In this document: positions 7,467 to 59,610 of the stretch, piece after piece
How positions within the stretch are numbered: position 1 is the first letter of the stretch
How the letters are laid out: each line of letters starts with the position of its first letter
Source: a virus
Length of the DNA stretch: 64,000 bases
Virus record (IMG/VR): IMGVR_UViG_3300020733_000013
Location: 1-64,000 of that record
Reading direction: 5' to 3' (one strand)
Program-made: the position numbers and the translations under genes
Notes under the pieces: generated by a model
Told to the model about the DNA's origin: nothing
Database searches by the model: none
What the model saw: the letters and a program-made list of their open reading frames with translations, nothing else

Positions 7467-7712
7467 ATGCAAAAGAAAACTCGCAGCCTCTTAGAGGAAT
7501 TAGAAGCGATTGGACAAAATCGTGACACTAAGCACATTATTGAGAGCCGTGCAAATAACATCATTACCAGCGCTATTAATTTGTTGGAAATGATTAACAA
7601 GCATTATGACTCAGAGAAAGCTGCCATCCTAGAACGCAAATTATTAAATGCTATCAAAGCACGAGATACTAGTAGATTTTCAAACAGTGTGAGGAAAACT
7701 GATGAAAATTAA
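7467..7712 (+). CDS. Small helical protein of unknown function
   Basis: 81 residues, predicted to be almost entirely alpha-helical and charged (LLEELEAIGQ ... ERKLLNAIKARD). It has its own late promoter and agga site. It overlaps the next gene, a probable head-interior protein, by 11 bases, so a virion or assembly role is likely. No family recognised. Confidence 0.7.
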   Translation: MQKKTRSLLEELEAIGQNRDTKHIIESRANNIITSAINLLEMINKHYDSEKAAILERKLLNAIKARDTSRFSNSVRKTDEN

Positions 7713-8268
7713 AGAAGTTATTATTGCTGAGGGCATATTGAGTAGTCTTGCTCAAGCTGCTTTTAAAAACAAGGGCTCAGGTGGCTATGGATATCAAAGC
7801 ATGGGCCCTAGCGGCGACTATGCCTACAAACATTTTATGCAGGGTTTTACTAAAGAACTTACTAATTTAATTCAAAGTTCAGAAACATCAGGAATGCCAG
7901 TTAATTTTCCTGCATATATCAATGCATACTTGACAAAATATCATTGGCATGCATCACAACAACAGCAACAAATATTGTTTAATATTGGATCACAATTACA
8001 AGCCTCTAGCAATCCTGGTATTTCCAAACAGTTAATCAATAAATTAGGTGCAGCATTGTGGCAAGTTGGGCATGAACAAATGCGTGACCCAAGAACTGGC
8101 AAAGTAATCAACATAAATCAAACCGACAATAGCCAAAGTAATGTGAGTTCTAACGTAATGGGGAACATGGCAAATCAGTTGACTGCTACTCCCGCAGCTC
8201 CTGTGCCACCTACTACACCTCGTCAAAGTCTAGCACAAAAAATGGCTGCAAGACGTGGCCAGGCCTAA
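7702..8268 (+). CDS. Probable head-interior protein with capsid-targeting-like N-terminus
   Basis: 188 residues. The N-terminus MKIKEVIIAEGILSS closely resembles the T4 capsid-targeting sequence (MKTYQEFIAEA), including an I-A-E/G site of the type cut by prohead protease gp21. The body is Gln/Ala-rich with no enzymatic motif. The C-terminus is low-complexity Pro/Thr followed by the basic RQSLAQKMAARRGQA. The targeting sequence and its cleavage are established for T4; applying them here is inference from motif similarity and late-gene context. Confidence 0.65.
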   Translation: MKIKEVIIAEGILSSLAQAAFKNKGSGGYGYQSMGPSGDYAYKHFMQGFTKELTNLIQSSETSGMPVNFPAYINAYLTKYHWHASQQQQQILFNIGSQLQASSNPGISKQLINKLGAALWQVGHEQMRDPRTGKVININQTDNSQSNVSSNVMGNMANQLTATPAAPVPPTTPRQSLAQKMAARRGQA

Positions 8269-22142: not shown

Positions 22143-23330
22143 ATGAGAGCAAGTGAGTTCATTGTTGAGTATAAGCAATATCCTCTGGAAGAGTTTGAGG
22201 GTATCAATATGAAACTTAAAGTAGACAACCATGAGTTGATTCTGCAGGCTCTTGACGACTGGGGTAACAAAGTACTAGGTCATGTTAGAATGAACATAGG
22301 CGATGGTAGTGAACTAGACCCTCAAGATTTACAAGTTGACGAACGTTATAGAGGTCAGGGCATAGCAAAGGTAATGTATGATTACCTTAAGTCTAAAGGT
22401 TATGAAATACATCGTAGTCCTGACCAAACAGATGACGGTAAACATTTTTGGGACAAGAACCGCGGTGAAGAAGGTAATGTTTGGGAAGATGTTTTCGGTT
22501 CAAAAGCACCAAAGAAATTTGAACCTCTGGAAGAGTTTGAGGAAAATAATCTAAAACTAGAACCCGAACCGTATGAAGGTTGGACTGGCGAAGGTATTAT
22601 TATTCGTGCGTATTTGAGTGACAAAGAAGTAGGGCATGTAATCTTTGAACCTACAGAAGATGATGAAACACAATGGTATGCAGTTGATGTTGAAGTAGAT
22701 GACAACTATCAGCGTAAAGGTATTGCTACATCTATGTATAACTTGGCTAAGAATATTGCTAAAAAGCGTGGTATAATTATTGTTCGTAGTCATGCACAAA
22801 GTCAAGCCGGTCAAGGTCTTTGGCAAGATAAAAAAGTTTGGGAAGATGTACCTAAACCTGGACCAAGTTCAGGAGCGCCAAAGCAATTTGGACCTGACGC
22901 AAAGATAGAAACTCGCCAAATGACTGTAAAGCAATTAATCTCGTCAGTACCAGGCTTGCCCTACTACAACAATGTAGTTGATGATTGGGATGCTAAGGAC
23001 TATAGTTGGGGAGTTACTAAGAAGGTAATAGAATACGCAACTTATCTAAAAGAACATCCAGAGAGTTTGTCAAAGTTGCCACCCATAATAGTATTGAACG
23101 GCAAGTTTGAAGATGGCGCACATAGAGTGTCTGCTATATGGTTGCTACAACAAAGAATGGATCCTAAAAATCCACTGTGGTCAAATGCCAAACTAAATGT
23201 TCAATTCGTTACTCAAAATATCAACGAATCATTTCTAATATTGGTGAGAAAAATGGTTTCTTTGGTAAGAAACACACAGATGAACAACGACAAAGAAAAA
23301 GAACCGAAAAACTTTTATCCCCTAAAATAA
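22143..23330 (+). CDS. Double GNAT acetyltransferase with ParB-like domain and capsid-targeting-like start
   Basis: 395 residues. The N-terminus MRASEFIVEYKQ resembles a capsid-targeting sequence with an I-V-E cleavage site. Two GNAT acetyltransferase domains follow, each with the acetyl-CoA loop R/Q-x-x-G-x-A: VDERYRGQGIAKVMYDY (about residues 60-76) and VDDNYQRKGIATSMYNL (about 180-200). After these comes a ParB/sulfiredoxin-like motif, PPIIVLNGKFEDGAHRVSAI (about 318-337). The last ~25 residues read out of frame into a homing-endonuclease remnant, so the natural C-terminus was probably truncated. If packaged, it could modify host proteins on entry, as T4 Alt does by ADP-ribosylation; that is inference. 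Confidence 0.72.
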   Translation: MRASEFIVEYKQYPLEEFEGINMKLKVDNHELILQALDDWGNKVLGHVRMNIGDGSELDPQDLQVDERYRGQGIAKVMYDYLKSKGYEIHRSPDQTDDGKHFWDKNRGEEGNVWEDVFGSKAPKKFEPLEEFEENNLKLEPEPYEGWTGEGIIIRAYLSDKEVGHVIFEPTEDDETQWYAVDVEVDDNYQRKGIATSMYNLAKNIAKKRGIIIVRSHAQSQAGQGLWQDKKVWEDVPKPGPSSGAPKQFGPDAKIETRQMTVKQLISSVPGLPYYNNVVDDWDAKDYSWGVTKKVIEYATYLKEHPESLSKLPPIIVLNGKFEDGAHRVSAIWLLQQRMDPKNPLWSNAKLNVQFVTQNINESFLILVRKMVSLVRNTQMNNDKEKEPKNFYPLK

Positions 23331-31313: not shown

Positions 31314-31931
31314 ATGAAAAGCCTACGTCATTATCTAATGGAAAGTGTCAGAACATATCGTTACACGATTAAAATCGCTGGCGATGTCGATAAGAATTTT
31401 ATCGACTTGTTCACACACAATCTTACAAAATTCGATCCAGTAAAGATTGAAGACTCAAAAACTACTCCAGTTCAAAAAGATCCATATGGATTTCCTGACC
31501 TACAGAATGAATCTATTACGATTATTAAAGCAGAGTTCAAGTACCCTGCAACTGAACCAATGATTCAGCAAATTGCACAATTGTTAGGTAAGAACATCAA
31601 TACTGTACGTGTATTAACTACAGATTATGATGACAGTATCAACAGTGAAGCAGACAAATATGCTAATCAAATGGATGCAGAAGAAAAACAAGCATTACTA
31701 AACACTGAAACATTAGAAGATAATGGTAAAGAAGCAAGCAAAGAATATGCAAATCAATACTTAGATAAGGTTGTTCCTAAGAAGCCAAGTATTGATATTC
31801 CTTATGCAGGCAAACAAACTCCTACTCAACCTAACAAGAGTAAAGAAGGAATCAACACAACTAGTGCTATGGGCAACGGTCGTGTTACAATGCCAGCAAA
31901 ACCACAAACAGGCTCTAGAAAGGCAGGATGA
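31314..31931 (+). CDS. Probable head-interior protein
   Basis: 205 residues. The N-terminus MKSLRHYLMESVRTYRY is short, basic and hydrophobic with an L-M-E/S site resembling gp21-type (I/L)xE cleavage. The first half is mixed alpha/beta (YRYTIKIAGDVDKNFIDLF, ITIIKAEFKYPA). The second half is charged, helical and then Pro/Thr/Lys-rich. It lies beside the small terminase. I infer a core or internal protein; no exact homologue is named. Confidence 0.6.
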   Translation: MKSLRHYLMESVRTYRYTIKIAGDVDKNFIDLFTHNLTKFDPVKIEDSKTTPVQKDPYGFPDLQNESITIIKAEFKYPATEPMIQQIAQLLGKNINTVRVLTTDYDDSINSEADKYANQMDAEEKQALLNTETLEDNGKEASKEYANQYLDKVVPKKPSIDIPYAGKQTPTQPNKSKEGINTTSAMGNGRVTMPAKPQTGSRKAG

Positions 31932-32170
31932 TGGTGGATTTTACTACTAGTCAATTGTCATGGATAGTAGTTGGTGCATGTGGCATTGGTGGTACTGGTT
32001 ACCTCTCAATGAATGCCAATATCAACGATCTAAATACTAAGACAACAGTTATTCAAGTTAAAGCAGAAAATGCAGAATCAAAAATGAATGACATGGGTAA
32101 ACAATTAGATAGAATTGAACAAGCGTTAGCAGTATTGCAAGAAACGCAAAATAGAAAAGGATCAAAATAA
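31928..32170 (+). CDS. Small membrane-anchored coiled-coil protein
   Basis: 80 residues from the ATG at the ATGA overlap. An N-terminal hydrophobic segment (LSWIVVGACGIGGTGYLSMN) is followed by a heptad-like helix (INDLNTKTTVIQVKAENAES ... LDRIEQALAVLQE). This is one membrane segment plus coiled coil. It may be a lysis accessory (small holin or spanin-like) or an anchor for head proteins. The next ATG overlaps its stop by one base. Confidence 0.62.
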   Translation: MMVDFTTSQLSWIVVGACGIGGTGYLSMNANINDLNTKTTVIQVKAENAESKMNDMGKQLDRIEQALAVLQETQNRKGSK

Positions 32171-34554
32171 TGGATTTTAAAAGCCTATTACAGTCATTCG
32201 ACACATTGAGCGAAGCTGAAACAAAAGATACAAAGACTGGTAGAGTCCATAAAGGTGACTATGGTAATAGTTACGATGCAGGCGAAGACCATGAAGTTAA
32301 AAGTGCTACTGCTCCTAAAAAGGGACGTGGTCGTCCTAAGAAAGGCAGTGGCGATTCTGGCGAAGTCAAATCATACGATACTAAATCAATTGGTAATGTG
32401 TTTGGTGCTGGTTCAAAGCCAAACAAGTCAGTTGGAACAGTTTCTAAAAAGCATTCATTAAAAGAATATATTGAAAGTGTTGAATCTAGTAAACAACTAG
32501 ATGAAGCAGTTATTGCTCCTACTCAACCAACAAATGGTATGGGTGGAAAACAAACTAGTTCTGGTAACCCACAACAAGATGCACAAAAAAATGCAGCAAT
32601 TAGCAACAATGCTAGAACAGCAATTAGTAAGTTAAGCAATGCTGGAATTAGTATTCCTAACAAATCACAAGCTGCAAATACAGCAATGAAGGCAGCGATA
32701 CAACCAAATGCTCAACCAACTCCGCAAGACAAAGATGCTGAAATGAATTTAGCAGCACAAGTAAATAATTTACTTTCAAAAGCTCCTGAAAGTCAAGTTG
32801 ACCAATTTACAAACGTTATTAAACAAATGACAAAATCTGCGGCTCCATCAGGATTATCAGAAGAAGCAGTTGAAGAGGGCAAAGACGAAGGCAAGCCAGG
32901 TAAGAACTTTGCTAAGATTGCCAAGTCAGCAGGTGCACATTATGGTTCAAAAGCTGCTGGCGAACGTGTAGCAGGTGCAGTTCGTGCTAAGTTAATGAAA
33001 CAAGGTAAACTTGAAGAATCTGCCGAAGAAAAATCATACACATGTGTACATGCTAAAAAAGGTAAATGTGAAGTAACTGCTACCACGAGCTATGATGCGG
33101 CTAAAAAGGCAGCAGCTAAATGGAAACTCAACAGCACATCTGGAATTGATGCACACTTAAACACAACAAAAGTTGCAGTAGATGAAGCAGCTAAGCCAGA
33201 CTTCTTAGACATGGACAAAGACGGTAACAAGAAAGAAAGTTTCAAGAAAGCCGTAAATGATAAAAAGTCTAAAAAGAAAGTAGCTGAAAGCCGCATTCAC
33301 GAAGATTCAGATTATACATATGAAACGGTTGCTAAAGTATTGGCACGTGAGAAGCCAGGATTGAATACTAGTTCAGATGATTTTTCAAGTGCAGTTTACC
33401 ATGAACTAATTGCTATTGGTATGACTCCAAAATCAGCACATAACTTAATGAGTTTCAATGAAGACTTTTTGAGTGATGTAGCAACATCATATGAGCACTA
33501 TCAAACAAACCCATCATTAGATGAAGGTGCAACTGAAGATTTTGCACAAAAAGCTCCTGGAATCAAGCCAAGCAAAGTTGTTCAAGTTCCAGCAAAACAA
33601 GAACCTACTCCATGGAAAGTAGATCCAATTAACGCGGCTACAGATAGAGCATACAATTTTATCTCTAACTTACGCAAAGACAAAACATTTGAAAGTGACG
33701 ATATGAAAGACGTACAATTTGAAAGCTGGGAAAAACAGCTAAACGGTTTATTGAATGAAGGTATCACAGTATCAACAAGTACTGGTCAGCAAGGTGCTCC
33801 TGATTCAGTAAGCATCAATGCAACTGATGCAGACGCAGAACAACTATTGTCAGTACTACGTACTGCTGGTGTTGGCGTATTTGGTGGCAACGAAAAACCA
33901 GAAATTGGTTACGGTGTAGCGCAAGGTGGTGAAGAAGAACCAACAGGTACAGGTACAGAACCAGAAGCAGCTCCGGAAGTAGTTGGTGACGAAGGCGACA
34001 TGTTAGCATTGATTAAGAAAATGGCTGGTATGGGTGATGAAGGTTCATCACACGGTGGTGACTATGAAGATGAAGAAAGTTCAGAAGAATCACAAGATGG
34101 TACATTAGAACCAGCTAGTGCAGATGACGAAGAATCTGATGACGAGGAAGAAGAACAAACTGATGAAGGTAATGCTTTCACTGGTAAATTGAAAGACACA
34201 CCAAAAGGTGGAGAATTCAAAATGGGTGATAAAGAGTACAAAGACACAAGTTCTATTGAAGAAAACGAAGAAATGTGTGATGAATGCGGTTACACTATGA
34301 ACGAGTGTGAATGTGAACATGAACACGGTGACGAAGACCAAGTTGAAGAATGCTGGGCTAACGATGCAGGTGGTGACGCTGAAGGTGGTACAGAATTGAT
34401 GAAACTAAAAGCATTGTTGAGCATGGGCAATGACTTGCACAAAATGAAACGTAGTCAGTCTGTTGGTAATCCAACAAAAGTCACAATGGAAGATACATTG
34501 ATGAAAAACTCAACAGAAATGTTGACTGACTGGAAAAAGTTAAGCGGAATCTAA
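32170..34554 (+). CDS. Large head-interior protein with AT-hook, Ca-loop and Cys cluster
   Basis: 794 residues, low in hydrophobic core. N-terminus MDFKSLLQSFDTLSEAETK has an L-S-E/A site like those cut by the prohead protease. An AT-hook-like DNA-binding motif occurs at about residues 50-60 (KKGRGRPKKGSG). An EF-hand-like DMDKDGNKKE loop lies near 345. Late in the protein come long acidic Glu/Asp runs and a Cys cluster, CDECGYTMNECECEHEH (about 702-718). Low-complexity Gln/Asn/Ala stretches fill between. I infer a packaged DNA-associated protein. It ends at a strong terminator. Confidence 0.65.
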   Translation: MDFKSLLQSFDTLSEAETKDTKTGRVHKGDYGNSYDAGEDHEVKSATAPKKGRGRPKKGSGDSGEVKSYDTKSIGNVFGAGSKPNKSVGTVSKKHSLKEYIESVESSKQLDEAVIAPTQPTNGMGGKQTSSGNPQQDAQKNAAISNNARTAISKLSNAGISIPNKSQAANTAMKAAIQPNAQPTPQDKDAEMNLAAQVNNLLSKAPESQVDQFTNVIKQMTKSAAPSGLSEEAVEEGKDEGKPGKNFAKIAKSAGAHYGSKAAGERVAGAVRAKLMKQGKLEESAEEKSYTCVHAKKGKCEVTATTSYDAAKKAAAKWKLNSTSGIDAHLNTTKVAVDEAAKPDFLDMDKDGNKKESFKKAVNDKKSKKKVAESRIHEDSDYTYETVAKVLAREKPGLNTSSDDFSSAVYHELIAIGMTPKSAHNLMSFNEDFLSDVATSYEHYQTNPSLDEGATEDFAQKAPGIKPSKVVQVPAKQEPTPWKVDPINAATDRAYNFISNLRKDKTFESDDMKDVQFESWEKQLNGLLNEGITVSTSTGQQGAPDSVSINATDADAEQLLSVLRTAGVGVFGGNEKPEIGYGVAQGGEEEPTGTGTEPEAAPEVVGDEGDMLALIKKMAGMGDEGSSHGGDYEDEESSEESQDGTLEPASADDEESDDEEEEQTDEGNAFTGKLKDTPKGGEFKMGDKEYKDTSSIEENEEMCDECGYTMNECECEHEHGDEDQVEECWANDAGGDAEGGTELMKLKALLSMGNDLHKMKRSQSVGNPTKVTMEDTLMKNSTEMLTDWKKLSGI

Positions 34555-49123: not shown

Positions 49124-49951
49124 ATGAGTGACTATTATCAAACCCTCGGGGTAGCAAAAAACGCTACCCCTGAAGACATTAAAAAAGCATATCGCAGAAT
49201 GGCTGGCATTCACCATCCAGACAAGGGTGGTGATACTGCACAGTTTCAAAAGATTCAAGAGGCATACGAAACCCTCTCTGATCCACAAAAACGTCAACAA
49301 TACGATAATCCAAATCCATTTGGTCATGGTCAAATGCCTGGTGGATTCCCCGGTGGAATGCATGGCTTTCCCGGTGGATTCAGTTTCCAAATGGGTGGAT
49401 TTGGTATGGACGACATTTTTGGACAAATGTTTGGTCATCCAGGACAACGCGGTAGACCACAACAACCTAGCTATCGTACTATAGTTTGGTTAACACTTGA
49501 ACAAGCATACAATGGCGAAGAGCAAATGTTAAACTTCCAAACACCTGGATTAGGTCAACAAACGGTTAAACTGTCAGTGCCCAAAGGCATAGATGATGGA
49601 GCAACACTGCGTTATGATAACCTAATCAAAGACAGTATCTTAATCGCTGAATTTAGAATTCAACCACATGCTAAGTTCCAACGTGATGGTATGAATCTAC
49701 ATTCGGTACATGATATCAGTGTACTAGATTTGATTGTGGGTACAACCATTAAGTTTAAAACTATTTCGGGTAAAGAACTTGATGTTACAGTAAAACCAGT
49801 AACACAACCCGGTAGTTCACTACGCATTGCCGGCGAAGGTATGATAAATGACAGGGGAGCAGGTGACCAATTTATATTGTTGAAACCATTTATTCCTGAT
49901 AGAATTGACTCTCGTATAACTGATAGCATTTTGCAATCAAAACAAAAGTAA
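49124..49951 (+). CDS. dnaJ: DnaJ-like cochaperone (type II, CbpA-like)
   Basis: 275 residues. J domain at the N-terminus (MSDYYQTLGVAKNATPEDIK, with HPD at 31-33), then a Gly/Phe-rich linker (GGFPGGMHGFPGGFSFQMGG), then two beta-rich client-binding domains. The zinc-finger domain of DnaJ is missing, making it type II. J proteins recruit Hsp70 (host DnaK) to substrates. It is followed 22 bases later by a ClpA-like unfoldase. Early expression is indicated by the upstream promoter. Confidence 0.93.
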   Translation: MSDYYQTLGVAKNATPEDIKKAYRRMAGIHHPDKGGDTAQFQKIQEAYETLSDPQKRQQYDNPNPFGHGQMPGGFPGGMHGFPGGFSFQMGGFGMDDIFGQMFGHPGQRGRPQQPSYRTIVWLTLEQAYNGEEQMLNFQTPGLGQQTVKLSVPKGIDDGATLRYDNLIKDSILIAEFRIQPHAKFQRDGMNLHSVHDISVLDLIVGTTIKFKTISGKELDVTVKPVTQPGSSLRIAGEGMINDRGAGDQFILLKPFIPDRIDSRITDSILQSKQK

Positions 49952-49973
49952 ATACCATTTTAAGGAAGCACTA

Positions 49974-52244
49974 ATGCACCCAGAAATCGAAGCCATCATT
50001 GAACATGCAATTGAATTGGCTAAGTCAAAAAGCCATCAATATTGTACAGTAGAGCACTTGTTACTAAGCCTAGTATCACATGCTCCCTTTAAGAAAGTGT
50101 TAGACTCTTATGGAGTTGACACTGAAATGATGACTAAGGAAATTGACGTATACTTAAATGGGTTACAAGCAATTACAGTAACACTAGGTCCCGGACAAGA
50201 GATTCAACCACGTAAAACAAATAGTTTGGAACGTGTTACAAACCGTGCAGTAGCACAAACATTGTTCTTGGGTCGTAAACAAGTTACAACTATTGACCTT
50301 TACTTGAGCATTTCAAGCGAAGCAAATAGTCATGCACATTATTTCTTGTTGAAATATGGCATTGAGAAAAGTCAATTTGTACCTTACTGGCAAAAGAATT
50401 ACAAGAACGAAGGTGCTCTTGTACGATTAAGCAACGAACAAGCAGACGAAATCTTAGAAGAATACACAACAAACTTGACTGATTTGGCTCGTCAGCATAA
50501 ACTAGAACCAATGATCGGTCGTAGCCAAGAAGTTGATGACATTGTAAACGTATTGGCTAAACGTTTCAAAAGCAACGTGTTACTAGTTGGTGATCCAGGT
50601 GTAGGTAAAACTGCTATTGTCGAAGGTATGGCTCAAATGATTGCAGAAGGTAACGTGCCTGAGTTCTTAGTTGGTCACGAAGTTTACAGCTTGGAAATCG
50701 GTAGCTTACTTGCTGGTAGTAAATATCGCGGTGACTTTGAAGAAAAGGTCAAAGCAGTCATTGAAGCACTTAACACCAAGAAACAAACTATCTTGTTTAT
50801 TGACGAAGCACATACAATGCAAGGTGCAGGTTCAAGTTCTCAAAGTGGTCCAGACTTTGCAAACATGATTAAGCCTGCAATTACAAAAGGTACATTGAAA
50901 GTTATTGCAAGTACTACTTGGGAAGAGTACTATGAGAGTTTTGAGAAGGATCGTGCATTAATGCGTAGATTCTATCGTGTCTCAGTAGATGAACCAAATC
51001 GTGATTCAACAGTTCGCATTTTAAGTGGCTTAAGTGGTCGTTTGGATGACTTCCATAGTGTTAAGATCACACCCGAAGCGGTTGAAGCAGCAGTTGACAG
51101 TGCTACACGTTACATGCATGACCGTAAAAATCCTGATAAATCTATTGACTTATTAGATGCAGCTTGTGCTAAACAACGTGTATTAGGTAACAAAGACGCA
51201 CAAATCACTAAAGAATTGATTTACGAGCAAGTTGAACGTATCTCTGGAGTACCAGCAGATAAACTCAGTAACGACAACAACGAACGTATCACAAACCTTG
51301 AGTCTAATATCAAAGACAAATTGTACGGTCAAGAGGAATCAGTTAGTAAAGTACTTGACCGTATATATGTCTCGTTTGCAGGTATCGGTAGTCAAACTAA
51401 ACCACTTGCAAGTTTCTTATTCTTGGGCCCAACTGGTACAGGTAAGACTGAACTGGCTAAGCAATTGAGCAAGAACTTAGATATGCCATTACTCAAATAT
51501 GATATGAGCGAGTATTCAGAGAAGTTCAATGTTAGTTCATTGCTTGGTGCGCCTCCTGGATATGTTGGTTATGGTGAAAGTAGCTTAGGTGGTGGTAAAC
51601 TTATCAATGACTTGAGTAAGAATCCACATGCTATTCTATTGTTTGATGAAGTTGAAAAAGCTCACCCAGATATCTTTAACATTTTCTTGCAATTACTTGA
51701 CGAAGGTCGTGTAACAGGAACTAATGGTAAAGAAGTCAATGCTAAAAACTGTATAATTATCATGACCAGTAACTTGGGTAGTAGTGACAGCGAACGTGCA
51801 GTAATTGGTTTTGGTAGTACTGAACGTACGGGTGATGATGAAAAAGCATTGAAGGACTTCTTCAAGCCTGAATTCAGAAACCGTATTGACTTGATTACTA
51901 AGTTCAACAAACTTGACAATCTTGCAATTAAGAAAGTGGTTATCAAGTTTACTGACGAGTTAAAGAAAGCATTGAAGGATACACAAGATATCGTGTTGAC
52001 TTTAACAGAACCAGTAGTTGATTACTTAGCAGAACAGGGCTACGATAGTAAGATGGGCGCACGTCCTCTTGCACGTAAAATTGATGAACTAATTCGTGTT
52101 CCATTGAGTAAGAAGATTCTTTTTGAACGTATTAGAAGTGCAAATATTACTGTAGTGATGAATGACGGTAAAGTTGATTTTGAAGTACATCAAAAAATGA
52201 TTGCAGAAGTAGGCGAAGATGGCATTATTAAAATCAGCAACTAA
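49974..52244 (+). CDS. clpA: ClpA-like AAA+ unfoldase
   Basis: 756 residues, almost exactly ClpA length (758). It has a double-Clp N domain and a first AAA+ module with GDPGVGKT (about 206-213) and TILFIDEAHTM. There is no ClpB middle domain. The second AAA+ module has GPTGTGKTE (from about 485) and LLFDEVEKAHPD. Downstream lies ERAVIGFGS near residue 611, at the place of the IGL/IGF loop that docks ClpA/ClpX onto ClpP. This suggests it can use host ClpP. T4 itself has no such gene. Confidence 0.9.
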   Translation: MHPEIEAIIEHAIELAKSKSHQYCTVEHLLLSLVSHAPFKKVLDSYGVDTEMMTKEIDVYLNGLQAITVTLGPGQEIQPRKTNSLERVTNRAVAQTLFLGRKQVTTIDLYLSISSEANSHAHYFLLKYGIEKSQFVPYWQKNYKNEGALVRLSNEQADEILEEYTTNLTDLARQHKLEPMIGRSQEVDDIVNVLAKRFKSNVLLVGDPGVGKTAIVEGMAQMIAEGNVPEFLVGHEVYSLEIGSLLAGSKYRGDFEEKVKAVIEALNTKKQTILFIDEAHTMQGAGSSSQSGPDFANMIKPAITKGTLKVIASTTWEEYYESFEKDRALMRRFYRVSVDEPNRDSTVRILSGLSGRLDDFHSVKITPEAVEAAVDSATRYMHDRKNPDKSIDLLDAACAKQRVLGNKDAQITKELIYEQVERISGVPADKLSNDNNERITNLESNIKDKLYGQEESVSKVLDRIYVSFAGIGSQTKPLASFLFLGPTGTGKTELAKQLSKNLDMPLLKYDMSEYSEKFNVSSLLGAPPGYVGYGESSLGGGKLINDLSKNPHAILLFDEVEKAHPDIFNIFLQLLDEGRVTGTNGKEVNAKNCIIIMTSNLGSSDSERAVIGFGSTERTGDDEKALKDFFKPEFRNRIDLITKFNKLDNLAIKKVVIKFTDELKKALKDTQDIVLTLTEPVVDYLAEQGYDSKMGARPLARKIDELIRVPLSKKILFERIRSANITVVMNDGKVDFEVHQKMIAEVGEDGIIKISN

Positions 52245-53134: not shown

Positions 53135-53472
53135 TGGCACAAAGTTCAGCATATCAATTGTTGCCACAAACAGCATACAAACAAGTTTCACAAGTGATTG
53201 GTGATAAAGTTCCTGCCGCCGCATATTATATCAAGCAAAACAATATGCAGACATTCACATGGAATCTTACAACATTTACCGGTCTATTACAAATTCAAGC
53301 AACACTAGCAGATAATCCAGGCAATGGTGACTGGTTCACTATCTATAACCTATCAGGTAATCAATTAACTCAAACTAGCTTTACTAATATATCTGGTAAC
53401 TTTGTTTGGGTTCGTGCTGTAATCAATAACTTTGGTTTTGGTGTTGTTCAAAGTGTTAAGGTTAGCTATTAA
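53134..53472 (+). CDS. Small virion structural protein (jelly-roll-like)
   Basis: 112 residues, beta-rich: YYIKQNNMQTFTWNLTTFTG, LLQIQATLADNPGNGDWFTI, NFVWVRAVINNFGFGVVQSV. The pattern matches small beta-sandwich virion proteins of aquatic T4-like phages. No catalytic motif. It is coupled on both sides by TAATG overlaps, so it is translated with the multi-enzyme gene that follows. Confidence 0.65.
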   Translation: MAQSSAYQLLPQTAYKQVSQVIGDKVPAAAYYIKQNNMQTFTWNLTTFTGLLQIQATLADNPGNGDWFTIYNLSGNQLTQTSFTNISGNFVWVRAVINNFGFGVVQSVKVSY

Positions 53473-56400
53473 TGAAAATTGCCGCACTATTAGAAAGTAA
53501 ACAACCATTGATGGAAGGTGGTAATTTAAGTGTGGGCAAACATGAAGCAGAACACTTAGATTTGAAAGTTACAAAACGTAGCTACATGGTTCCCAAACTC
53601 AATGAACTATTAAACGCAATCAATAAAGCATTCAATGTAAAACACAAGGCTCCATTATGGAGTAGTGAATTATTGTCAAGCGGTAAGTTTTTGAGTGGTA
53701 GTAGTTTACATTTCTTTGATGTTGCGGGTATCAGTGATGATACATTCTTTGCTAAGAAGCCAACTGTAGGTGATATTGATACCATGGTTGACAAACGTTT
53801 GGAATTCATTTTACAAGAATTCTTAACAAGTGCAACAAATAAACAAATTGGTCCTGCAAAATTGCTAGGATTTCAAAAAGGTAACGAACAATATTCTGCA
53901 TTGTTTGAGTTACAAGACCCACCCGTAAAAGTACAAATTGACTTTGAATTTGTTTCTTTTGAGAATGGAATGCCTAGCGACTGGGCAAGATTTAGTCATA
54001 GCAGTTCATGGGATGATATCCAACAAGGTGTTAAGGGTGTATTTCATAAGTGGTTGATTCAATCATTGACTACACTAACCAACAAGCAATTCCTGTTACG
54101 TAAAATGATCGGTCGTGGTGCAATGCGTAAAGAAGAGGACATCCCTACAACAGACAACATGTATAGTTTTGCCGTGTCTAGTAAAGAAGGTGGCGGATTA
54201 CGTGCTAAGTACGAACCAGTATTAAATCCTAACACAAACAAACCATTAGTGATTAAGGGTTTGCCTGTAATGAAAGCAGCACCTGCAGCTGGATACGAAC
54301 AAAACATTGGTAAGATTTTTTCAACTATACTAGGCAAACGTCTTGACCCTAAACAAATGCAAGCTATCTCTAATAACTTCTGGTCATTCACTGGGTTAGT
54401 ACAGTTGATGGGTAAGATATTATCACCAGAAGATAAACAAACAGTATTGCTCGGTTTCTTAAACAAAACAATCGGTAAAGGTAGTCAAGGTCTTTACAAG
54501 AACAATCCAGAAAAAGATATCAGTGAAAAAACAACAGCAATCAATTATCTAGTTAAAACATTAGGACTACAATTGCCACCTGAGTTCAATCAAATGATGG
54601 CTGACTATAGAAAAAACTATAAGATGACTGAACTATCAGAAGCAGGTCCTAACTATAAGCGTCAAGGTATCCCACACATTTACAAGCCTGGCTCAACAGT
54701 TGAATTGAAAGATAATGAGTTCATTGAGTTATGTAAAGAAATCATGGCTGATGGTGGTAAACTTGAAGGTGTACCAATCAACTTGAAAGTTGATGGTGCA
54801 GGCATCAGATTTGGTAAAGACCAAAATGGTCGTCCATTCTTTATGACAAGTAAAGTTACAGAACCTAAATACATTGAGAATTTTGGTGACTTTGAAAAGT
54901 ATGGTCGTAGTGTTGGACAAGACGAAGAACGATTGAACTTTACTAAGCAATATGACAATGCATTAAAGACAATATTGACTGCTCCATTTATGAAAGTTAT
55001 CCCTAGTGATACTATCGTACAAGCAGAAATGATGTATACTCCAATGGCTCAACAAGAGAATGGCGGCTTGAAGTTTGTTAACATCCCTTATGATCCTAAA
55101 AAGTTGGGTAAAGAGATGACTCTTGTACCATTCATGTTCAAACAGTTTAGCACTGGACAAGTTCGTCCTGACAGTCAAAAGATTAAAGAAGCACTATTAA
55201 AAACAAGCAATAGTAAAATTAAAATGGTTAACAACAACTTGCAACATAAAGGTATTGATGTTGCTAAGATTGTTAGTCCTATTGTTAAAAACGCAGATAC
55301 ATTAAGTGCTGCGGTTGCTACTCGTGGAACAAATCCTACAAAAGAAAAAGCAAAAGCTATCTTGTCTCAAGCTAGACAACAACTAAGCAATGCTATTATC
55401 AATGGACCTATTCCAGGTAAAGATCAATTGGGTGACATGATTGAAGGTCTTGTTATCAATATGCCTAGTGGTTTACTAGCTAAAGTAACAAGCACAGACA
55501 TGGCAAACAAGATGGCTACTAAAATGGCTGCTCGTCAACCAGTCAAAGGTAATCAACGCCCTGCTGTAGTTGCTGTGGGCAGTGCGATTGGGCATGTAGG
55601 ACATCAACAATTATTCAACCATGCAATCGCTCTAGCAAAACAAGTTGGTGGTCAACCTTACATGTTTATAGGACCTGCAGAAGGTAAAGATGATCCTATT
55701 CCACCAAGTGTTAAAGTTGAAACATGGCATAAGTTATACCCACAACTAGCGAGTAACATATCAACTGTTAGTCATGAGGGCGGTACATTACTACAGAAAA
55801 TCAAACATGAGTTGATTAATCCTCAACCAGGTAAACCACCAAGATATGATACAATTTATATTGTTGTTGGTAGTGATAGACATGACATGGCTGAAAGTTG
55901 GAGCAAATCTCTAATGAAAGCAGTTAACAAGTTCCCTGGATATGAAGGTGTTAAAGTTGTTCCACATGTAACGTCACGTGATAAGAATGAAGGTGGTACA
56001 GGTATAAGCGGAACATTACTACGTAGTGTTTTATCAGACAAAACAAAAACTCCAGAACAGCAATTTGAAGTTTGGAATCATGCTTACAATAGTGGTAACT
56101 ATGGTGCTCAGAAACTACCGGCAGAGTGGATTCAGCACTTAATGAATATTGCTCGTAAGGGTATGGGAATGCAAACTATGAATGAGTCAAGAATCTTTAA
56201 TCCAAAGTCATTAGTTAATGTATATTATGTTTCCCCTAATGGCAATCGTCATAAGTTAGCAAAAAGCATTCCGTATGATTTAGTTGAGAAACTATTACAT
56301 GCATTGAAAGTTAAAAAGAACATTGACATTCACATGGATGATGTTGAAGTTCGTCCTGCTGATCCCTCACAATATACAGTGAGCACCAGTCAGTTTGATG

Positions 56401-57623
56401 AAGGTTCAGAAGAAGCATTACAATATGCAACTAAAGCACATGCTGGGCAAACTCGTTCAGGTGGTGATCCATATATCAGTCACCCAGTTCGTGTAGCTAA
56501 TCATATCAAGCAATTTAAAAAATCACATAACCTAGATGCATTAATTAGTGCAGCATACTTACATGATACAATTGAAGATACTGACACAACACAAGAAATC
56601 TTACACGATTTGTTTGGCGGATTAGTTGCTAGTCTTGTAATGGAACTTACAAGCGATCCAGAACAAATTAAAAAGATAGGTAAGGCTCAATATCTAGCAC
56701 ACAAAATGGCTGCAATGAGTAGCTATGCACTAGTTATCAAACTTGCTGATAGATTAGATAATGTCAAAGATATCACTACTGCTAAGACTCCTGAATGGAG
56801 ACACAAATATGCAACTGAAACTAATCACATCTTAGATTACATTGAAAAGCATCGTGCTTTGTCAGGTACCCATACTAAATTGATTGATATGATTCGTGCT
56901 AAGTTGGCTGAGATTGACCAACCACAGCAAGATGTGGCGGAAGGCAAGAACATGCCAGACTTAGAACATGTTGGCGAAAGAGTAGTATCTGTTATGGATG
57001 CTGAACGCAGACTTGCCCATGGAGATAGAATATTTGCGTTCCACGAAATGGATGAAGAGCCGTTTGAGATTCACAATGTCGGTGAGTTGGCAGGATATGA
57101 TACTGAACAGTTATTGGCAGTACCACAAAGTGTAGCGGAAGAAGCAGACGAACAAAAAAGCTCAAATGTCTTTCAATCTATGGGTAGTCAATTAATTGCT
57201 ATGGGTAATGATGCTGATAAAATTAAAAGGCATGACCCATCAGTTATTGAAAAAGCAATTGATGCTAAATTAGAAAAAATCAATGATCCAAAACTTACAC
57301 ATGTTACGAAATCCTTTTTGAGTAAAGTTGTTAAGTTCAATAGAAGTAATCCAAAAACAATGGCAGCAATATTTGGATTTACCTTCTCTATTATTGCTAG
57401 AGTATCAATGCAATTTAGTCATAATATGGGACTTAGTCCAACACAAGCAACATTACTAATAGAAGCATTATTGCCTACATTGGGTAATTTCTTGGGTTAC
57501 ATTGTCAATGGGTTTAGTGTAAAAGACAGTGTACAAGCTGGATTGATTGCTGGAACAATTGGCGTCGGCGGCACCTTGGCTGCAAGCGGTGCATTGTCTG
57601 AAGATTATTTAGACGAAAAATAA
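53472..57623 (+). CDS. Multi-domain enzyme: nucleotidyltransferase, ligase-like, NMNAT-like, RelA/SpoT HD hydrolase, membrane tail
   Basis: 1383 residues. N-terminus MKIAALLESKQPLMEGGNL resembles a capsid-targeting sequence with L-L-E/S and L-M-E/G sites. Domains follow in order. A nucleotidyltransferase-like GSSLHFF ... VGDIDTMVD (about 74-106). A ligase/adenylyltransferase fold with NLKVDGAGIRFG (Lys439), VQAEMM and EGLVINMPSGLLAKV. An HxGH nucleotidyltransferase resembling NMN adenylyltransferase, with GHVGH near 706 and ISGTLLR near 845. A RelA/SpoT-type HD hydrolase with HPVRVA (about 1004) and HDTIEDT (about 1031). The last ~90 residues contain hydrophobic membrane-like segments. Motifs are seen; injection and substrates are inference. 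Confidence 0.78.
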   Translation: MKIAALLESKQPLMEGGNLSVGKHEAEHLDLKVTKRSYMVPKLNELLNAINKAFNVKHKAPLWSSELLSSGKFLSGSSLHFFDVAGISDDTFFAKKPTVGDIDTMVDKRLEFILQEFLTSATNKQIGPAKLLGFQKGNEQYSALFELQDPPVKVQIDFEFVSFENGMPSDWARFSHSSSWDDIQQGVKGVFHKWLIQSLTTLTNKQFLLRKMIGRGAMRKEEDIPTTDNMYSFAVSSKEGGGLRAKYEPVLNPNTNKPLVIKGLPVMKAAPAAGYEQNIGKIFSTILGKRLDPKQMQAISNNFWSFTGLVQLMGKILSPEDKQTVLLGFLNKTIGKGSQGLYKNNPEKDISEKTTAINYLVKTLGLQLPPEFNQMMADYRKNYKMTELSEAGPNYKRQGIPHIYKPGSTVELKDNEFIELCKEIMADGGKLEGVPINLKVDGAGIRFGKDQNGRPFFMTSKVTEPKYIENFGDFEKYGRSVGQDEERLNFTKQYDNALKTILTAPFMKVIPSDTIVQAEMMYTPMAQQENGGLKFVNIPYDPKKLGKEMTLVPFMFKQFSTGQVRPDSQKIKEALLKTSNSKIKMVNNNLQHKGIDVAKIVSPIVKNADTLSAAVATRGTNPTKEKAKAILSQARQQLSNAIINGPIPGKDQLGDMIEGLVINMPSGLLAKVTSTDMANKMATKMAARQPVKGNQRPAVVAVGSAIGHVGHQQLFNHAIALAKQVGGQPYMFIGPAEGKDDPIPPSVKVETWHKLYPQLASNISTVSHEGGTLLQKIKHELINPQPGKPPRYDTIYIVVGSDRHDMAESWSKSLMKAVNKFPGYEGVKVVPHVTSRDKNEGGTGISGTLLRSVLSDKTKTPEQQFEVWNHAYNSGNYGAQKLPAEWIQHLMNIARKGMGMQTMNESRIFNPKSLVNVYYVSPNGNRHKLAKSIPYDLVEKLLHALKVKKNIDIHMDDVEVRPADPSQYTVSTSQFDEGSEEALQYATKAHAGQTRSGGDPYISHPVRVANHIKQFKKSHNLDALISAAYLHDTIEDTDTTQEILHDLFGGLVASLVMELTSDPEQIKKIGKAQYLAHKMAAMSSYALVIKLADRLDNVKDITTAKTPEWRHKYATETNHILDYIEKHRALSGTHTKLIDMIRAKLAEIDQPQQDVAEGKNMPDLEHVGERVVSVMDAERRLAHGDRIFAFHEMDEEPFEIHNVGELAGYDTEQLLAVPQSVAEEADEQKSSNVFQSMGSQLIAMGNDADKIKRHDPSVIEKAIDAKLEKINDPKLTHVTKSFLSKVVKFNRSNPKTMAAIFGFTFSIIARVSMQFSHNMGLSPTQATLLIEALLPTLGNFLGYIVNGFSVKDSVQAGLIAGTIGVGGTLAASGALSEDYLDEK

Positions 57624-58731: not shown

Positions 58732-59610
58732 ATGAACCTAAAAGAATTTGACGAATTTAAACTTGGGGATGCTGTACATTTCCATGACGAACTTAACCCT
58801 GCAATCTTCAACGGGGAACATATGAAGCCACAGGTTCGTGAACAATTATTAACTATTGCAGACGATTTTCTGTCACATTTGGGTATTGATAACCTAGACA
58901 TTGACGATATTACTATCAGCGGTAGTTCAGCAGCATATAGCTATACAAAGCATTCAGACATTGACCTACATATTCTTGTAGATATGAACAAGTTCAGTGA
59001 TGACGACATTTACCGTGAGTTATTTGACGCTAAAAAAGTCATATATAATGACCAACATGACATTAAAATCAATGGATTTGAAGTTGAATTGTATGTACAA
59101 GATACAAATCAGCCCGTAATTAGTTTGGGTGAATATAGTGTATTAAACGACAAATGGATCAAATTGCCACGTAAACGCAGGGCGCATTTTGACCAAGCAG
59201 CTACACAATTAAAATATAGAAAACTTTATAAATTAGCAGAGTTTGCTTACAAGTCTAACAACGTTCACAAAATTGAAAACGTGTTAAGAACCATTAAAAA
59301 ATATCGTCAAGCTGGATTAGATAAAGCCGGTGAGTTCAGCCCAGAAAACTTAGCATATAAAGCACTACGTACAAACAAAGTGATTGACAAGTTGTATAAA
59401 AAGGTTGATGAACTACACAGCAAAGAATTAAGTATCCCTGAAGATATGTATGAATGTTCAGGATATATACCAAGCGAAAAAGAAAAGAATGATCCTCGTT
59501 TTAGTCGTGCGTTAAGTGTAGATGTAGGACCTAATGCGATTAAGAAAAATGCAAAAGCGTTTGGGTTTAAGGTTAGTAGAGCGGGTATTCCCCCGTTGTT
59601 AAGGAAATAA
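58732..59610 (+). CDS. Nucleotidyltransferase-fold protein with capsid-targeting-like start
   Basis: 292 residues. N-terminus MNLKEFDEFKLGD shows the M-x-x-x-E-F pattern. A pol-beta-type nucleotidyltransferase motif is clear: ISGSSAAYSYTKHSDIDLHI followed by LVD (G64, S65, then D78/D80 and D86). A third acidic strand is probably KINGFEVELYV. Such folds transfer nucleotides to proteins, RNA or small molecules; substrates are unknown. The C-terminal ~120 residues are helical and basic. It could act in the host after injection, by analogy with T4 Alt; that is inference. Confidence 0.7.
   Translation: MNLKEFDEFKLGDAVHFHDELNPAIFNGEHMKPQVREQLLTIADDFLSHLGIDNLDIDDITISGSSAAYSYTKHSDIDLHILVDMNKFSDDDIYRELFDAKKVIYNDQHDIKINGFEVELYVQDTNQPVISLGEYSVLNDKWIKLPRKRRAHFDQAATQLKYRKLYKLAEFAYKSNNVHKIENVLRTIKKYRQAGLDKAGEFSPENLAYKALRTNKVIDKLYKKVDELHSKELSIPEDMYECSGYIPSEKEKNDPRFSRALSVDVGPNAIKKNAKAFGFKVSRAGIPPLLRK

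Follow-up and report, generated by a model that had tools for sequence, protein, structure and literature searches.

In phage T4, the enzyme Alt, a packaged host-modifying protein, and the internal proteins bear a short N-terminal leader ending in LxE and are delivered into the cell along with the DNA; the head protease gp21 cleaves after L/I-x-E and strips such capsid-targeting leaders (PMC9026906). Another type of protein predicted to be injected is the polyvalent protein (Iyer et al. 2017, PMC5512222), which is large, joins unrelated enzyme domains in variable module order and often comprises a zincin or other peptidase module, a common theme though not a universal one, the zincin being the predicted processor. 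In jumbo phages, repair systems composed of an RlaP nucleotidyltransferase and an RNA ligase were reported (Burroughs and Aravind 2016, via PMC7824862), where the Pol-beta nucleotidyltransferase always has an RNA-ligase-type enzyme as its partner. In cyanophages, the HxGH protein T4-GC190, called a "cytidyltransferase" and having T4-GC71 as a neighbour, is found beside a KWDG ligase-like protein (PMC3037559). Finally, MESH1 and the small alarmone hydrolases are HD_4 enzymes that retain every metal-binding motif residue and lack a synthetase domain. The locus described below has features in common with each of these systems, and no description of its domain combination, or of head-protease polyproteins, was found in the literature searched; the nucleotidyltransferase-ligase-HxGH core was likewise not found in the accessible part of PMC5512222.

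The window, i.e., the whole stretch of 64,000 nucleotides analysed (positions 1 to 64,000 of record IMGVR_UViG_3300020733_000013), belongs to a 75,890-base IMG/VR virus fragment carrying myophage genes, namely tail sheath, tail tube, clamp loader, DnaB-type helicase, endolysin, ClpA/B-type ATPase and DnaJ. An ORF starting with ATG (53472..57623, on the + strand like all its features below) encodes a product of 1383 residues, a predicted precursor. The motifs that the first-pass annotation of this DNA had read in it are all present, i.e., GDID (residues 100-103), KVDG (439-442), EGLVI (658-662), AKV (670-672), HVGH (708-711), ISGT (845-848), HPVRVA (1004-1009) and HDTIEDT (1031-1037), together with LADRLDN (1091-1097). 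Alignments of 45, 38 and 32 diverse relatives show little or no variation at the catalytic positions, and this near-invariance, together with the match of the HD part to HD_4 and MESH1, indicates that the motifs are not due to chance. The enzyme folds with intact catalytic residues proposed by that annotation were borne out by AlphaFold and Foldseek, Pfam and conservation. PADLOC returned no NTase or ligase match, and a host search via a genome collection found none, its single match being a phage-looking contig in an Anaerolineae MAG, on which ribonucleotide-reductase-like genes adjoin the trio of domains described below. As regards the surroundings of the ORF, DnaJ-type and ClpA/B-type genes are located directly upstream of the trio (49124-52244) and are kept in three related loci (L001, L003 and L004), while a second, different nucleotidyltransferase-like gene lies two genes downstream (58732-59610; GSS..SDIDLHIL, phrog_36119), a domain resembling its product being present as cargo inside locus L082.

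The first domain (NT; residues 16-390, 53517..54641) has GGN as N-terminus and was modelled by AlphaFold with a pLDDT of 92.6. Its motif residues are GS (76-77), GDID (100-103) and QIDFE (155-159), and G76, S77, D101, D103, D157 and E159 are invariant in the NT alignment (GS, GDxD, QxDxE). Foldseek matched the model to DNA polymerase beta and other Pol-beta nucleotidyltransferases with a probability up to 0.99 and an E-value of 4.6e-3, none being below 0.001. Based on this model, NT belongs to the Pol-beta nucleotidyltransferase superfamily, with hG[GS]...DxD and a third acidic residue in a Pol-beta fold. Fold prediction was needed because profiles built from the NT and LIG alignments (LIG being the second domain) retrieved nothing credible among the sequences of solved structures; neither domain has a confident match in Pfam. 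With E-values up to 0.1 allowed, the RlaP profile (PF10127) recognised none of the 45 NTases, and it had no match in 20 records either, so that RlaP membership was dropped. A Pol-beta NTase next to a KxDG RNA ligase follows the logic of the RlaP repair systems (PMC7824862), and NT is therefore likened to an RNA-end repair set rather than filed in that family. MenT4 and JHP933 also appear among the weak Foldseek matches, and Pol-beta-type toxins are known to act by nucleotide transfer, with host proteins or intact tRNA as acceptors. NT could then act in this way on the host, the other domains being further takeover enzymes, and T4 Alt offers an example of a packaged host-modifying enzyme (PMC9026906); such a role is nonetheless rather unlikely, the constant pairing with a catalytically intact ligase fitting repair better than damage.

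This ligase (LIG; residues 391-697, 54642..55562) was modelled with a pLDDT of 94.2, and K439, D441, G442, E519, E658, G659 and K671 are invariant in its alignment. RNA ligases came first in Foldseek, namely the archaeal 5d1o (E-value 8e-5), Naegleria, T4 Rnl2 and Rnl1, and viral RNA ligases were the best fold matches in a second structure library. With motif I KxDG and motifs III, IV and V in a ligase fold, the modelled domain is an RNA-ligase-type covalent nucleotidyltransferase. DNA ligases, which have this fold in common, are also among the matches, and a ligase packaged in the head would meet phage DNA first; in some relatives, moreover, a gene judged nuclease-like by eye stands between or near NT and the ligase (L009 4783-5787, L010 8946-9758, L184 7048-8364 and L015 3240-3980). 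Ligase and NTase might as such mend ends or nicks of the injected phage DNA and not RNA, a proposal to which we give a low probability, RNA ligases being the best matches in both libraries.

The third domain (HxGH; residues 698-905, 55563..56186) is adenylyltransferase-like, of the NMNAT/cytidylyltransferase superfamily, and matches phrog_3041, a cytidyltransferase family, at 2e-14. The window protein exhibits HVGH at 708-711 and GISGTLLR at 844-851, HxGH being nearly invariant among relatives, and both NMNAT motifs, i.e., HxGH and ISxTxxR, are thus present. The first-pass annotation called this domain NMNAT-like, which holds for the motifs, while the window protein matches no NMNAT-specific model. 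A NAD restoration kit could be envisaged, where HxGH would be a true NMN adenylyltransferase acting after a NAD-depleting defence, the HD hydrolase described below would remove alarmones and the ligase would use the pool. Phage NAD synthesis systems are indeed known (PMC7824862; NARP1, PMC12774641), and the HxGH homologue of Xanthomonas phage X1 weakly matches archaeal-type NMNAT models (2e-8, below the cut-off). Against this, the FAD_syn model matches 19 of 32 HxGH members and FAD synthetase or general cytidylyltransferase models match many, no nicotinamide phosphoribosyltransferase-like partner was noticed beside HxGH, and a supply of NAD leaves the constant companionship of NTase and ligase unexplained. 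The kit as a whole consequently appears improbable, and NAD rebuilding by the HxGH domain itself is possible but not favoured.

Searching with the N-terminal domain yielded 156 relatives, 80 of which were kept. With iterative profiles, NT-LIG-HxGH was found in one ORF and in that order in 72 cases (45 non-redundant at 80%), a number that is no measure of abundance as the loci were picked by similarity to this very family. The annotation had known of no phage protein with such an order; the literature search agrees, but NT-LIG-HxGH turns out to be common in uncultured phages. On sequence grounds, the conserved unit is this trio. It is also encountered in pieces: in Xanthomonas phage X1, neighbouring genes encode NT, an intervening product, LIG and HxGH; in Vibrio phage phiKT1024, NT is followed farther on by a protein of 484 residues whose first half is ligase-like, with KTDG, and whose second half resembles an adenylyltransferase; and locus L045 has an NT gene and a LIG-HxGH gene. 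In Campylobacter phages, NT carries a leader, the mature start predicted for phage CP220 being GGNTTT after FILE. The stand-alone NTs of the Vibrio and Xanthomonas phages begin exactly with M-GGN, which is what one would see if the active enzyme starts at GGN. A divergent second trio, trio B (NTb, LIGb and NMNb), was found at 70 loci, and NTb adjoins LIGb in 72/72 loci examined, be it as three genes, two genes or one; the NTb protein had no match in cultured phages. Where LIGb is a gene start, it typically resembles MKITELLSE/AA..GRKYQHIED (the slash marking a predicted cut) and [LIVF]xE is present in 26 of 29 distinct separate starts, and LIGb fused behind NTb has [ILV]xE/A at the same point in 8/8 distinct linkers. 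Similarly, several separate NMNb genes have MFLRNIFE/A or MLLNQLFE/A immediately ahead of the domain, and xE sites of the type seen at these gene starts are also present in the linkers of fused LIGb-NMNb chains. In split relatives, new gene starts usually bear an LxE leader at the same point.

The leader of the window protein (residues 1-15, MKIAALLE/SKQPLME, 53472..53516) has predicted cuts after E8 and E15, and [LIV]xE directly precedes GGN in 44/44 leader-bearing non-redundant relatives, in line with the capsid-targeting-like N-terminus recognised in the first-pass annotation. The leader sites LLE and LME it had pointed out are part of a larger LxE set at the domain joints, which it had overlooked, with cuts predicted after LSE390 (54633..54641), MNE905 (56178..56186; less canonical, with M at P3), VAE1157 (56934..56942) and VAE1223 (57132..57140). 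Sites were counted in the 45 fused proteins non-redundant at 80% with composition shuffles as control, which preserve composition and not relatedness, related sequences not being independent events. The NT-LIG linker has [LIV]xE in 45/45 (shuffles: mean 15, maximum 24) and the LIG-HxGH linker in 0/45, while the stretch after HxGH, a fixed 45 residues that may extend into cargo, has it in 42/45 (mean 23.5, maximum 32). The C-terminal regions contain 75 copies of [LIV]xE[GAS], where shuffles give 30 (maximum 44), and 13 of VAE[GAS], where shuffles give 0.8. Inside domains, [LIV]xE is rarer than in domain shuffles; LxE is also found inside domains of the window protein, which means that cutting must depend on exposure. 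From the placement of the sites, the predicted mature products are NT, LIG-HxGH and cargo, and the NT / LIG-HxGH split is also where the genes are divided in phiKT1024 and L045. We therefore regard cleavage of the precursor at its joints as likely. The protein might instead be an ordinary intracellular multi-enzyme, neither packaged nor cut, in which LxE is a by-product of acidic, alanine-rich linkers: the motif is short and found within domains too, and multidomain phage enzymes exist. Yet linker composition cannot account for a site in all 45 NT-LIG linkers when shuffles reach 24 at most, and this view explains neither the 0/45 in the LIG-HxGH linker nor the leaders reappearing at gene splits; it is the least probable of the readings considered.

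The same joints are met when near-identical genomes are compared. The DNA of the window and that of locus L003 are 81.5% identical up to 53473, in the start codon, from where the whole trio is swapped for trio B; identity resumes (97%) at 56193, 6 bases past the predicted cut MNE905/S, and this position is the recombination junction of the window with both L003 and L004. At VAE1157/G, L003 has about 560 extra bases encoding a GNAT-like module with VAEG on both sides, and L004 has another sequence, differing from the L003 insert. A similar GNAT sequence is found as a stand-alone window gene (22143-23330) with a leader-like start, MRASEFIVE/Y, and two GNAT-like repeats. As judged from these alignments, the trio is replaced as one unit, and different cargo is exchanged at or close to the predicted sites.

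In the window, the cargo module (residues 906-1157, 56187..56942) contains a MESH1/SpoT-type HD hydrolase at about 981-1137, with matches to Pfam HD_4 (7e-17) and to human MESH1 (PDB 3nr1; 1e-15 to 1e-16). All the metal-binding motif residues are present, namely H1004, H1031, D1032 and D1093, and the RelA/SpoT synthetase domain is absent, the spoT_relA model being matched by the HD part only. As in MESH1 and other small alarmone hydrolases, this composition suggests with good probability an active alarmone or NADPH hydrolase; unlike them, the predicted enzyme is a module of a phage precursor. Few of the loci have HD: besides the window, L021, L022 and L034 carry it, as do the trio-B loci L003, L004 and L112, and in L001 it has a gene of its own. 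Present in a small minority of relatives, it is an optional module, one of many interchangeable C-terminal cargoes, the others including phage lysozyme, GP88, amidoligase and another HD type. The last module (residues 1224-1383, 57141..57620) ends in LSEDYLDEK and has related segments in L016 and L023. It is moderately hydrophobic, and the membrane-like segments reported earlier are not supported, the Kyte-Doolittle mean never exceeding 1.6 over any 19 residues; true membrane helices, without support from hydropathy, were discarded. Of note, a small module CWKGY..GTK..NCV (or KCV) recurs in many cargo regions and in cyanophage genes adjoining the ligase-HxGH pair (C-termini of L029, L031, L037, L054 and L141; L012-L014).

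As for the head itself, a gp21-type protease is encoded in 7 of 20 relative records and gp23 in 8 (one partial), every record with the protease also having gp23, and the gp23 of relatives has YL[AS]E/SATAG near the N-terminus. The window's own record, a fragment, contains no protease and only a gp23 piece. The piece is found in a short ORF (225-617), where about 59 residues resemble the gp23 start and precede a small domain ending in ..FVLRW; comparable F.LRW/F.LRY tails close the neighbouring short ORFs at 1-234, 922-1116 and 1271-1549, and record G012 has a short gp23 piece too. Published virion proteomics detected T4-GC190, a homologue of the third domain, in cyanophage S-SM1 (PMC3037559) and a cytidylyltransferase in S-CREM2 (PMC10665884), and the GC190 gene of P-HM1 was recovered by the HxGH profile. 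The cyanophage genes differ from the window protein in being separate, and the first of the neighbouring genes does not encode a GGN-type NTase. On comparative grounds, packaging of the precursor in the head is probable. The earlier proposal of a single head-packaged protein thus stands with regard to packaging, as we infer it, and less so with regard to "single," the mature form probably being several proteins cut from a precursor. Capsid-targeting-like starts are also seen in other window genes, i.e., MKSLRHYLME/S (31314-31931) and MKIKEVIIAE/G (7702-8268), these two and 22143-23330 being candidates for further packaged proteins. A 794-aa protein (32170-34554) starts with MDFKSLLQSFDTLSE/A, has many LxE sites in disordered-looking acidic sequence and is perhaps another head precursor.

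Taken together, the window protein is quite plausibly a polyprotein that a T4-like myophage packages and its head protease matures, combining an RNA-repair-like set with variable cargo. Domains, catalytic residues, site placement and modular exchange come from sequence and structure prediction and form the basis on which we infer packaging, cleavage, injection and substrates. The N-terminal leader would route the precursor to the prohead core, as such leaders do for T4 Alt and the internal proteins. Cutting behind [LIV]xE at the joints, the gp21-type protease would then release the NTase, with GGN as its start, a ligase-HxGH protein and the cargo, here the HD hydrolase and a small C-terminal protein. 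While T4 internal proteins lose end pieces, the window protein has sites between several enzyme domains and one precursor would thus give several enzymes. It also differs from polyvalent proteins (PMC5512222) in having head-protease sites and no peptidase module: Pfam detects no peptidase domain in it and the HEAEH string at residue 24 is inside the NT N-terminus; a HELVH motif is present in relative L035. The cut enzymes would enter the cell together with the DNA, as packaged T4 enzymes do (PMC9026906). There, NTase, RNA-ligase-type enzyme and HxGH enzyme most likely act jointly on broken nucleic-acid ends, and we regard such a cooperation as quite likely. These ends are probably those of RNA cut by defence nucleases, though for RNA as the substrate our confidence stays somewhat short of even. 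The NTase would restore nucleotides, the ligase would seal, and the HxGH enzyme would make an adenylylated product that contributes to end repair or to NAD supply, its candidate substrates being NMN, another nucleotide or a nucleic-acid end. For the HD cargo, the most likely role is hydrolysis of (p)ppGpp-like alarmones or of NADPH. With respect to the RlaP systems (PMC7824862), the window family departs by an NTase without RlaP match, an added HxGH enzyme, and leaders with a precursor form.

Beyond this locus, it may tentatively be proposed that a true polyprotein strategy supplies tailed phages with the enzymes of the start of infection. A single precursor, loaded into the head and cut at its joints by the head protease, would yield a new type of RNA-repair set (Pol-beta NTase plus RNA ligase-HxGH) and exchangeable cargo, new cargo being acquired through recombination at or close to the protease sites. 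Catalytic folds are here proposed for two protein families outside Pfam recognition, and a context is offered for the unexplained "cytidyltransferase" of cyanophage virions. The LxE joints would offer a sequence-based guide to other injected effectors of uncultured phages, any module between two sites being a candidate. If true, phage heads would carry a matured multi-enzyme kit active before any phage gene expression, which could counter, for instance, RNA-cutting or alarmone-based defence.
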